DNA from: Bacteroidetes bacterium HLUCCA01
Lineage (GTDB): Bacteria > Bacteroidota > Rhodothermia > Balneolales > HLUCCA01
Direction of reading: 5' to 3'
DNA length: 42,098 nt
Assembly: GCA_001314545.1 (NCBI GenBank)
Contig: LIHN01000011.1
Coordinates: forward strand, 1-42,098
Below, one piece after another: positions 9,030 through 15,933 of the stretch. The notes below the pieces were generated by a model. The model saw only the letters and a list, made by a program, of their open reading frames with translations, was not told the origin of the DNA and did not search any database. Position 1 is the first letter of the stretch; every line of letters starts with the position of its first letter. A program made the translations under genes and the position numbers.

Positions 9030-10265
9030 TCAGCGGGATAATCGCCCGGCAGATAAACCAGCCAGTCTGCCGCTTACCCAGGCCCAGTAGAAATTGAACC
9101 CCCCGATTCTCCCGAAGACATCTATAATTTCGCCGCATAAAAACAATGAAGGGTCCTGCTTGTGCGCCATCGTTGCGGTGTCAATCGACTCCAGAGGTAC
9201 CCCTCCGCCGGTAACTTCCGCTTTACGGTATCCTTCGTGCCCTGTCCAGGGAAGTGTGAACCGTGTAAGCTTTTGAATGAGACGTGTGCGGTCTGTGCGT
9301 GAACACTCGGCGGCCCGTTTATCGGCAATCGGTTCATCAGAAAGCAAGGCATCGGTAAGACGGTTGGGCAGGTAATCTCGGATAACACTTCGTACTGTCC
9401 CTTTTCCGGTGGCAAAGCGCGTAATCCAGACCTGCTCTGAATCACCGGACCAGTTCACGGACAGCTCAGGTTTTTGACTCGCAGTTGTGTTCTCCTGCTG
9501 AACGTAACGTGTCACGTGATGACTTGCATCCAGCACAGCGGGTCCGCTGAATCCCTTATGCGTAAACAGAAACCCTTCACGGCTGGATGCGTTTGCGGCA
9601 GCGGTAAGCTTTACATTCAACGAAATTCCGGCGAGGTTGTCTGTACCGGGGTGAGGTCCGGTCAGCGGAGTAAGGGCCGGATAGGTTGGTGTAATGGAAA
9701 TACCCGTTTCTTTCAGTACGCGGTGACCAGATCCATCTGTACCGATAGTAGGAACAGATAATCCTCCAGACGCCCAGATTACGGCATGAGTGCTGTATTT
9801 AAGCCCGTCTTCTGTACTGATAAACCAGTTCTGGGTTTGCTCATCTTTTTTCAGTGCAGTCACATGCTTGTTGTAAAGAATCTGAGCTCCCGTTGAAATC
9901 AGTTTATTGACCAGAACATCACGAACATCACGGGCTTGATTGGAGACCGGGAACCATTTGTTGGTATCTGCCTCACAGGCAAGGGGTAGTCCGAGGTCAT
10001 GCTGAAACCAGTCTTTACACGCTGCCACAGACCAGGACTTAAAAATACGGCGGAGCAGGTTTGGAGATGAATCGGTATGGTAATCTGATAGCGACATAAC
10101 AACCGGGAGCACGTTACATCGCGTCCCTCCCGACATGAGTATTTTTTTGCCGGCTTTGTCTGTACGCTCAAGAACCAGAACGCGGCTGCCGGATGAGGCC
10201 GCATAAATTGCGGCTGTGAGTCCTGCGGCACCGGCGCCTACTACAATTATGTCAGCTGATTTCAC
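9030..10265 (-). CDS. YhiN/HI0933-type FAD-dependent oxidoreductase
   Basis: A flavoprotein of the HI0933/YhiN family (BaiN-like); the physiological substrate is not established for most members. The N-terminus [13 protein letters not shown] (residues 4-16) is the dinucleotide-binding fold (G10, G12, G15). It is followed by [21 protein letters not shown], the family signature that binds FAD. The C-terminus has [13 protein letters not shown] and [26 protein letters not shown], again family hallmarks, so the 411-residue protein is complete. Its start overlaps the mgsA stop by 4 bp (ATGA), indicating translational coupling. A coding-like frame runs on past its end (see findings). Confidence 0.92.
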
Positions 10266-10723
10266 TGGGAGCCGATGGCATTGGGTAGCTGGAAATCTTT
10301 GATGATGCGCTCATACTTCCCGTTAAGCAGCGGTGAGGAAATCAGAAAGTCGGCCGTGGCACGGTTACAGGCAACGGGAATATTGTAGAGTACAGACAAT
10401 CGGAGCAGTGCTTTCACGTCAACATCATGAGGCTGCGATTGCAGAGGGTCCCAGAAGAATATCATGAAATCGATTTTCCCTTCGCTTATTCCGGCACCTA
10501 TTTGCTGGTCGCCACCGAGGGGCCCGCTGCGATAGCGATGCACTTTCAAGCCGAGTTTCTCTGTAATCAAGCCACCTGTTGTACCCGTACCGAAAAGATT
10601 GTGTTCTTCGAGCGTGCCCTTATTAAAATCGGCCCATTCCAGCAGTTCCAGTTTGCGGTTATCATGAGCAATTAACGCGATGTTTTTTCTGGTGTTCATG
10701 AGCTGGACATGATCGTCTGACAT
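10262..10723 (-). CDS. mgsA: Methylglyoxal synthase
   Basis: Converts dihydroxyacetone phosphate to methylglyoxal and phosphate, a bypass that relieves sugar-phosphate stress. The 153 residues align by eye to E. coli MgsA (152 residues). They show ALIAHDNRK (H20, D21), GTGTTG (45-50), [11 protein letters not shown] (catalytic Asp72), FFWDPL and [12 protein letters not shown] (His99, Asp100/102). It is the first gene of a two-gene minus-strand unit and overlaps the flavoprotein gene by 4 bp. A promoter-like TTG/TAATTTG pair and two G+C-rich palindromes lie upstream. The start at 10723 gives a slightly long N-terminus; a later ATG at residue 9 (MNTRKN) is also possible. Confidence 0.97.
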
Positions 10724-10878: not shown

Positions 10879-10909
10879 TTGTATTTTTGTCGTACTTATG
10901 CTATATTCG
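10879..10909 (+). promoter_or_regulatory. Promoter of the candidate non-coding RNA
   Basis: TTG at 10879-10881, a 20-bp spacer, and TATATTCG at 10902-10909 (seven of eight positions of TAnnTTTG). The spacing and sequence match the Bacteroidota housekeeping promoter. Transcription would begin near 10915-10918. No protein gene follows on this strand for 4.7 kb. Confidence 0.6.
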
Positions 10910-10915
10910 TTTTAG

Positions 10916-11228
10916 GTAGCATCCCATAAACCATTGTATTACTTACAATAAAGTTTCAGGATGTAGCCGGTACTTTTGCGGATTTATGGTGAAAACAGGG
11001 GGTTTTCTGCTGCAAAGCACCGGCAATCAATGAAAGTGGCACTACAGGCGCGTCATCACCCTGTGTGCAAAAGTGTATAGATTGAGAGAAGAAATTGTCC
11101 TGCACGGTGTAGAAGGCCGGATGCAGGCAAAATGAAGATACAATTCAGTAAAGTATTAGCTAATCATCACGGGAAGCGTGAAAAGAGCCAAAGTCTGATG
11201 CAGGTCGCACTGTATCAGACTTTTTTTA
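10916..11228 (+). ncRNA. Candidate structured non-coding RNA, about 310 nt, family not recognised
   Basis: A promoter lies just upstream and a very strong intrinsic terminator closes the region, yet no open frame of useful length lies between. Several helices can be drawn by eye. There is a hairpin at 10933-10949 (6 bp) and a long helix 10966-10979 with 11012-11024 enclosing a 6-bp hairpin at 10991-11007. Others are 11039-11048 with 11060-11068 (9 bp), 11099-11104 with 11122-11127, and 11168-11180. The segment 10924-10932 can pair with 10980-10989, crossing the long helix, so a pseudoknot or a switch is possible. I do not see the marker sequences of tmRNA, RNase P RNA or SRP RNA. The 5' end is estimated. 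Identification as a gene is inference from layout and structure. Confidence 0.6.
11192..11227 (+). terminator. Strong intrinsic terminator of the candidate RNA
   Basis: A 12-bp stem without mismatch (11192-11203 with 11210-11221, one G-T pair), a six-base loop (gtcgca) and a run of seven T from 11221. This is the strongest terminator seen in the window and points on the plus strand. Confidence 0.9.
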
Positions 11229-11246
11229 TGGGCATATTCTCTCAGC

Positions 11247-11268
11247 CGTCATTTTATGACGTTTTTTT
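11247..11268 (+). terminator. Second, tandem intrinsic terminator
   Basis: CGTCAT and ATGACG pair around a TTT loop (11247-11261) and are followed by seven T (11262-11268). It lies 19 bp beyond the first terminator in the same direction, a fail-safe arrangement. Confidence 0.75.
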
Positions 11269-11410: not shown

Positions 11411-11450
11411 ATTAAAACCTCAATTCCATCGCCCCCCAGCGACGAAATTG
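11411..11450 (-). terminator. Possible terminator downstream of tRNA-Ser
   Basis: An imperfect inverted repeat (11421-11450, outer arms CAATT/AATTG, inner CGCC-type pairs) is followed on the minus strand by AGGTTTTAAT. It starts about 10 bp beyond the tRNA 3' end. The T run is short, so efficiency is doubtful. Confidence 0.4.
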
Positions 11451-11459
11451 AACATACTG

Positions 11460-11551
11460 TGGCGGAGAGAGAGGGATTCGAACCCTCGGAACCCCGGTGG
11501 GGGTTCAACATCTTAGCAGGATGCCGCTTTCAGCCACTCAGCCATCTCTCC
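11460..11551 (-). tRNA. tRNA-Ser (anticodon GCU)
   Basis: A 92-nt class II tRNA with the CCA end encoded (complement of 11460-11462). The acceptor stem pairs GGAGAGA with TCTCTCC, and the discriminator base is G, as in serine tRNAs. The anticodon loop CTGCTAA gives anticodon GCT (complement of 11515-11517), reading AGC and AGU. A long variable arm with arms AACCCC and GGGGTT and a T arm GAGGG-TTCGAAT-CCCTC complete the fold. It lies 51 bp downstream of hpt on the same strand and may share its transcript. Confidence 0.97.
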
Positions 11552-11602
11552 GTAAGAGACTAAATATACAAAGAAACTCAGAGCCTCAAAATACTAAACC
11601 AT

Positions 11603-12175
11603 TTAATTCGAGGCCGGTCTTGTGTCATCCAGTACGTAGATCTGGGCCAGATTACGACCTTCCTGGGCATAATCGAGTCCGTAACCCAGAACAAACAATG
11701 TGGGTATTTCGAAGGCTACGTAATCGAGTTTGACATCGTATTTACCGGCACCGGGTTTGTGCAGCAAGGTAACTACCTTGACGGAAGCGGGGTTCAGCGC
11801 CTTCATCTGTCTGAGGATATAGCTCATAGATAGACCGGTGTCAACGATGTCCTCTACAATAAGTACATGTCTGTTTTCAATCTGAGCATCCAGGTCCTTT
11901 AGCTTGGTGACCTTACCCGATGAGACTTTTTCATCGCCGTAACTGCTGAGTTTAAAAAAATCCATCTCGCAGGGAATGGATACATGCCGCATAAGATCAG
12001 CCAGAAAGATAAACGATCCGTTCAGAACACCTATAAAAATGGGTTTCTTGCCCTGGTAGTCCTCGTCAATTTGACGACCAATTTCAGCGACACGCTGCTG
12101 AATCTGGTCCCTGGATATAAAAAGCTTGAATGTTTCTCCGTTGCATTGGATGGTGTCAGGGGTATAAATACTCAT
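11603..12175 (-). CDS. hpt: Hypoxanthine phosphoribosyltransferase
   Basis: Purine salvage enzyme that transfers phosphoribose from PRPP to hypoxanthine and usually guanine. The 190-residue type I PRTase shows FIGVLNGSFIF (pyrophosphate-binding loop, about 47-57), the flexible loop after FFKLSSYGDE, and the PRPP motif VLIVEDIVDTGLSM (104-117). The C-terminal FEIPTLFVLGYGLDYAQEGRNL is typical of bacterial Hpt. Its ATG overlaps the tilS stop by 4 bp, so translation is probably coupled; a tilS-hpt pair is a common bacterial arrangement. tRNA-Ser follows 51 bp downstream. Confidence 0.97.
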   Translation of the reverse strand: MSIYTPDTIQCNGETFKLFISRDQIQQRVAEIGRQIDEDYQGKKPIFIGVLNGSFIFLADLMRHVSIPCEMDFFKLSSYGDEKVSSGKVTKLKDLDAQIENRHVLIVEDIVDTGLSMSYILRQMKALNPASVKVVTLLHKPGAGKYDVKLDYVAFEIPTLFVLGYGLDYAQEGRNLAQIYVLDDTRPASN

Positions 12176-15645: not shown

Positions 15646-15933
15646 ATGTCTGTAACCCGAGATGATGTCAAATATATGGCCAATCTGGCCCGGCTTCGTC
15701 TGACTGAGTCTGAAATTGATATGTATCAAAAGGATATGAACAAAATTCTGGAGTACATGGAGCAGCTCAATCAGGTTAACACCGACGATGTAGAGCCGTT
15801 GGAACATGTGCTGGAGTTGCCTGCCCGCTACCGACCTGACACAGCGGAGCCCCCGCTTCAACATGAGGATGCGCTTAAAAATGCACCGGATGCGGATTCA
15901 GATTACTTCCGCGTACCCCGCGTCATCGACTAA
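15646..15933 (+). CDS. gatC: Asp-tRNA(Asn)/Glu-tRNA(Gln) amidotransferase subunit C
   Basis: The small subunit of GatCAB, which amidates Glu-tRNA(Gln) and Asp-tRNA(Asn). The 95-residue protein begins MSVTRDDVKYMANLARLRLTESE and contains MNKILEYMEQLNQVNTDDVEPLEHV, then RPDTAEPPLQHEDALKNAPD and DYFRVPRVID, all family features. GatA and GatB are not in the window, so the subunits are encoded separately. It stands 32 bp before the YfhO-family gene on the same strand and is probably co-transcribed with it. Confidence 0.96.
   Translation: MSVTRDDVKYMANLARLRLTESEIDMYQKDMNKILEYMEQLNQVNTDDVEPLEHVLELPARYRPDTAEPPLQHEDALKNAPDADSDYFRVPRVID

Follow-up and report, generated by a model that had tools for sequence, protein, structure and literature searches.

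A candidate fast-evolving small RNA gene with a compact conserved 3' domain in one genus of Balneolales

Between a gene of the methylglyoxal synthase type (mgsA) and a serine tRNA gene of a Balneolales genome lies a plausible small RNA gene, and we put the chances as about even that it stands alone as the gene of a small RNA, one that evolves fast, is confined to a single genus of the order and has a 3' box that probably pairs with target mRNAs. The stretch of DNA analyzed (the window, 42,098 nucleotides) is one contig (C6) of that genome, here called G000, and its relatives among public genomes are Balneolales/Balneolaceae assemblies, including the congeners G001 and G002. In the mechanism that we favor, the RNA would be transcribed from its own promoter and would end at the first of two terminators; the working part would be its 3' domain, consisting of a first box (A), a hairpin whose sequence is free to change, a mostly unpaired second box (B), a third box (C) and the terminator, while the 5' part would be at liberty to vary. 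Box B would most likely act as an antisense seed, pairing with target mRNAs close to their starts and altering their translation or stability in the manner of FopS/GibS-type small RNAs in Bacteroides. An object of this sort is of an ordinary kind, and its 3' seed box is interesting and unproven. No paper in the literature searched joins Balneolaeota with small RNA, and a 3' domain as compact and defined as this, with its candidate seed, therefore offers a testable entry to RNA regulation in this phylum.

The features of the locus are collected in Table 1. The promoter described in the initial annotation is indeed present, and it is the only TTG-N18-21-TATATTCG site in the window (0.075 expected from shuffles); a looser pattern, TTG-N18-21-TANNTTYG, occurs five times against 2.6 expected from shuffles, and taken alone the promoter is modest evidence. 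The counterpart at the same place in G002 carries TTG-N21-TATATTTA. At the other end of the unit the first terminator is real and has its run of seven T, although its stem is not the perfect 12-bp helix first described but one of 14 pairs including a G-U, and the second terminator was found as reported. Terminator-like sites number four in 901 nt, against 0.8 expected. Since the unit and the tRNA-Ser/hpt transcript run towards each other, strong termination is to be expected on both strands, and the heavy transcription that had been read from the two terminators is an unnecessary assumption. The assignment of hpt is our presumption from reading the open reading frame; the pair formed by hpt and then tRNA-Ser(GCT) (window 11460-12175) is kept in most of the Balneolales genomes examined. 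The unit had also been said not to be a leader, and this stands, although the downstream plus-strand gene is 4.4 kb away rather than 4.7 kb (an open reading frame at 15646, presumably gatC from its resemblance).

Table 1. Features of the locus, its neighbors and related 6S RNA loci (window positions unless a locus is named)
Feature	Position	Strand	Remarks
mgsA, methylglyoxal synthase type, divergent neighbor	10262..10723	-	Pfam MGS
Promoter, Bacteroidota type, TTG-N20-TATATTCG	10879..10909	+	sequence; TTG 10879-10881, TATATTCG 10902-10909
Predicted non-coding transcript, ~310 nt	10918..11227	+	ends inferred from promoter and terminator
Box A, AGTGTATAGATTGAGAGA	11072..11089	+	counterparts in the other three copies end (A)AGAGAG; weak alone
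Hairpin separating boxes A and B, CCTGCA...TGCAGG	11099..11127	+	predicted fold
Box B, AATGAAGATACAATTCAGTAA	11131..11151	+	conserved, mostly unpaired
Box C, GAGCCAA	11185..11191	+	directly before terminator; GAGTTAA and GAGCTAA in congeners (GAGYYAA)
Intrinsic terminator 1	11190..11227	+	14-pair stem 11190-11223 (one G-U) + T7
Intrinsic terminator 2	11247..11268	+	short stem 11247-11261 + T7
Terminator-like site of convergent tRNA-Ser/hpt transcript	11419..11452	-	placed to end that transcript
tRNA-Ser(GCT), convergent neighbor	11460..11551	-	
hpt, hypoxanthine phosphoribosyltransferase (presumed)	11603..12175	-	synteny anchor
Other Balneolales 6S loci	L114:2502-2324; L115:1293-1475; L113:2520-2340; L106, L107, L108		

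No credible coding frame was found in the unit, in agreement with the earlier view that its roughly 310 nt hold no useful open frame: the longest ATG frame (56 amino acids, from 11132) crosses both terminators and is not conserved in relatives. The locus thus combines a promoter of its own and an intrinsic terminator with the lack of a conserved coding frame, as is asked of a stand-alone small RNA gene. A strongly folded RNA is a different matter. The whole unit including the terminator gives a fold z of -4.0, largely because of the terminator's contribution; the body without it gives -1.2 (22 of 200 shuffles fold equally well) and -1.7 in a second test, and the body of the G002 counterpart gives -0.5. 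Without the terminator the unit is no more stable than shuffled sequences, the kind of stability looked for in riboswitches and ribozymes being absent, and the body fold is ordinary, so that the "at least five helices" drawn at the outset are not confirmed as a sign of structure. Comparison with Rfam, proposed as a check, returned no family at the locus at gathering or permissive thresholds. The genome has its tmRNA, RNase P RNA and SRP RNA at other places, all three scoring above their Rfam cut-offs, and the locus is none of these, whose marker sequences had not been seen in it.

The evidence of relationship comes from the 3' domain. The order mgsA, gap, tRNA-Ser and hpt is found in G001 (L100) and G002 (L101) as in the window, and in both congeners box B is identical, ACAGAAGACACAGATCAGTAA, which the window's AATGAAGATACAATTCAGTAA matches at 16 of 21 positions; over both strands of the 42 kb, this place gives the window's best 21-nt match to the congener box, on the same strand, the next best site reaching 14/21. 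The distance from the box B core to the T run of the terminator is 87 nt in the window and 87 and 89 nt in the congeners. With at most one mismatch the box B motif occurs once per genome in all three genomes of the genus and is absent from the two other genomes of the family; the exact box motifs were not found in viral contigs. A model of the 3' domain run over 129 genomes of the order found it in the genus only (3/129), together with one additional chance match inside an apparent ribonuclease HII gene. When the model was built without the window copy, this copy ranked first in the window, tied with one other site, at E = 5.4, and its homology therefore rests on place, spacing and match. Boxes A and C are shared more weakly. 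In the predicted window transcript box B stands at the 97th percentile for being least paired, and in the other copies at the 59th to 78th; a hairpin of other sequence can be drawn between boxes A and B at the same place in each other copy, the copies being too few for a covariation test.

Conservation above background is confined to this domain (its boxes and the terminator distance). The 5' half is at background identity, the window transcript and its G002 counterpart share 47% identity over their whole length against 45-48% for shuffled sequences, and BLASTN searches for the whole locus in 60 relatives returned only the locus itself; the comparison with relatives that had been suggested thus favors the 3' domain and fails for the remainder. 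The initial call of an RNA gene survives as that of a small RNA, because a relative of its 3' domain occupies the corresponding gap in the congeners, whereas a structured or housekeeping RNA is unsupported, given the ordinary fold and the background identity between congeners, which in their 6S RNA are 84-94% identical.

The model search also revealed that G000 has the 3' domain twice, the other copy (C1:149469-149531, minus strand; L127:1557-1495) lying in some 790 nt of non-coding DNA that runs from a gene that we take, from reading it, to be glnS to an 83-aa open reading frame without a Pfam match. The genus genomes therefore hold two domain copies in G000 and one each in G001 and G002. The second copy shares a 41-nt near-identity with that of G001 (none of 100 shuffles attains the score), and shows a hairpin of 10 bp separating its boxes A and B, with strong hairpins downstream; no terminator was found in it at the matching distance. 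A motif shared upstream of both G000 copies, CGAATCGTGTTYAC, was set aside as within chance (attained by 21 of 100 shuffles).

A possible target was met in G002, in a CBM9/DUF5916 gene (L147:1524-1501, minus strand; G002:C11, ~15.2 kb): counted from the gene's likely start, positions of about 11-34 nt include 19-20 nt complementary to the box. By chance a 19-mer of this sort would be expected about 1e-5 times per genome, a figure to be read with the knowledge that the site was picked out post hoc and that the start codon is uncertain. Against G002's own RNA the complement pairs with one bulge, and the predicted duplex (-38.2 kcal/mol) is stronger than that of 300 of 300 shuffles. No counterpart of the site was found in G000 or G001 at E <= 1, and within the window no further complement of its own box was found. 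The complement is suggestive only: it may be a target site, or else have arisen by chance or by capture of a copy.

A multi-copy small RNA family acting by base-pairing, FopS, is known in Bacteroides (PMC11697453), and FopS/GibS of Bacteroides thetaiotaomicron (PMC11697453) resemble the locus in being non-coding, in being present more than once in a genome, in the fast evolution of the remainder, in a conserved unstructured segment able to serve as an antisense seed, and in belonging likewise to the Bacteroidota/FCB. They differ in that FopS counts 14 paralogs and is single-stranded over a 5' stretch, whereas the domain studied here has two copies and a box near the 3' end, and in that the target here is only a candidate; the likeness is one of kind, and no relation in sequence is claimed. 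A wider proposal would make the domain the mark of a new trans-acting, paralogous small RNA family of Balneolota, recognized by the box ACAGAAGACACAGA(T)CAGTAA, carried by genes of their own in some species and by the 3' UTR of an operon for a two-component system in another, and pairing with the starts of outer-membrane (CBM9/DUF5916) mRNAs. We consider this distinctly unlikely as it stands.

The main rival to a small RNA gene arises from G001, since there the 3' domain forms the 3' UTR of an operon that encodes a histidine kinase and a response regulator, and a separate promoter is not evident. The gap in question (L100:1117-4817) holds both genes on the strand of the RNA, the kinase matching the Pfam families HATPase_c, HisKA_3 and Reg_prop, with Y_Y_Y also matched; kinase and regulator occur in the gap between mgsA and tRNA-Ser in this one congener only. 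The window's unit could accordingly be an operon relic, a promoter and a 3' UTR with terminator left behind after gene loss, so that the transcript would be a by-product or the 3' UTR alone would matter. That the G001 domain stands directly behind the two genes, in the same gap and downstream of a site that resembles a promoter and lies toward mgsA, speaks for such a history, as do the background identity to G002 in the middle of the window transcript and its ordinary fold. Yet neither the window nor the G002 gap keeps any trace of a kinase or regulator, the best relatives of the G001 kinase in G000 and G002 are far from orthologs (24-33% over part of the protein), two of the three congeners, though without the genes, keep a promoter, the distance from box to terminator is preserved, and the second domain copy sits at an unrelated place. 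Because two of the three congeners have the promoter without the genes, a gain of the two-component genes in G001 is as likely as their loss elsewhere, and we hold the relic to be possible, though rather unlikely. The arrangement in G001 also recalls small RNAs derived from 3' UTRs, in that its domain closes the transcript of an operon and is followed by a strong terminator; the domains of the window and G002 differ from these in having their own promoter and no upstream gene. A partial second box that precedes the kinase gene of G001 (GACAGAAGACA) was rejected as within chance.

Box B might instead be a site in the DNA, for protein binding or for recombination beside the tRNA gene, rather than an element of an RNA. 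It was recognized by its sequence, has a tRNA gene as its neighbor and variable content adjoining, as such a site could have; but its strand and its distance relative to the terminator are fixed in three genomes, the second copy is not beside a tRNA gene, and no flanking repeats were noticed, short of a systematic search, all of which makes this reading very doubtful. Still less probable is a gene for one or several very small proteins: short frames do exist, such as the 56-aa frame already described, but that longest frame overruns both terminators, the differences between the congeners in box B change amino acids, and the congener boxes have no start codon.

A divergent 6S RNA, which the initial annotation had kept in view and which the lack of a Rfam 6S match in this genome would allow, has a negligible chance and is excluded because the 6S function is taken by an element between zapA and ymdB, at the same place as the 6S of other Balneolales that Rfam can detect. 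A 6S RNA or 6S-like RNA would likewise be its own transcription unit in an intergenic gap, but the rod with a central bubble that marks it is absent from the locus, whose transcript has no rod-like fold and which lies at the wrong place.

The site of the 6S RNA of this genus, missed at the Rfam cut-off, is a by-product of the analysis that is firmer than its main finding. The Rfam 6S model (RF00013) finds no match in G000, and gives full-length matches of 30-31.5 bits in three other Balneolales genomes, all below the gathering cut-off of 46.4; 6S RNA in Balneolales is thus divergent, scoring below gathering in three genomes and going undetected by Rfam in this genus. In G026 and G038, the two of these three whose neighbors were examined, the match lies between what we take, from reading the neighboring genes, to be zapA and ymdB. 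Synteny then located the 6S RNA of the window's genome in its own zapA-ymdB gap (L112:1295-1477; G000:C7, ~256.7 kb), where a 183-nt element has a perfect closing stem, CGCTATTGAGG/CCTCAATAGCG, a T7 tail and a rod-like consensus fold. It is 94% identical to its counterpart in G002, 85% to that in G001 and 79% to that in G003, and identity among the congeners is 84-94%.
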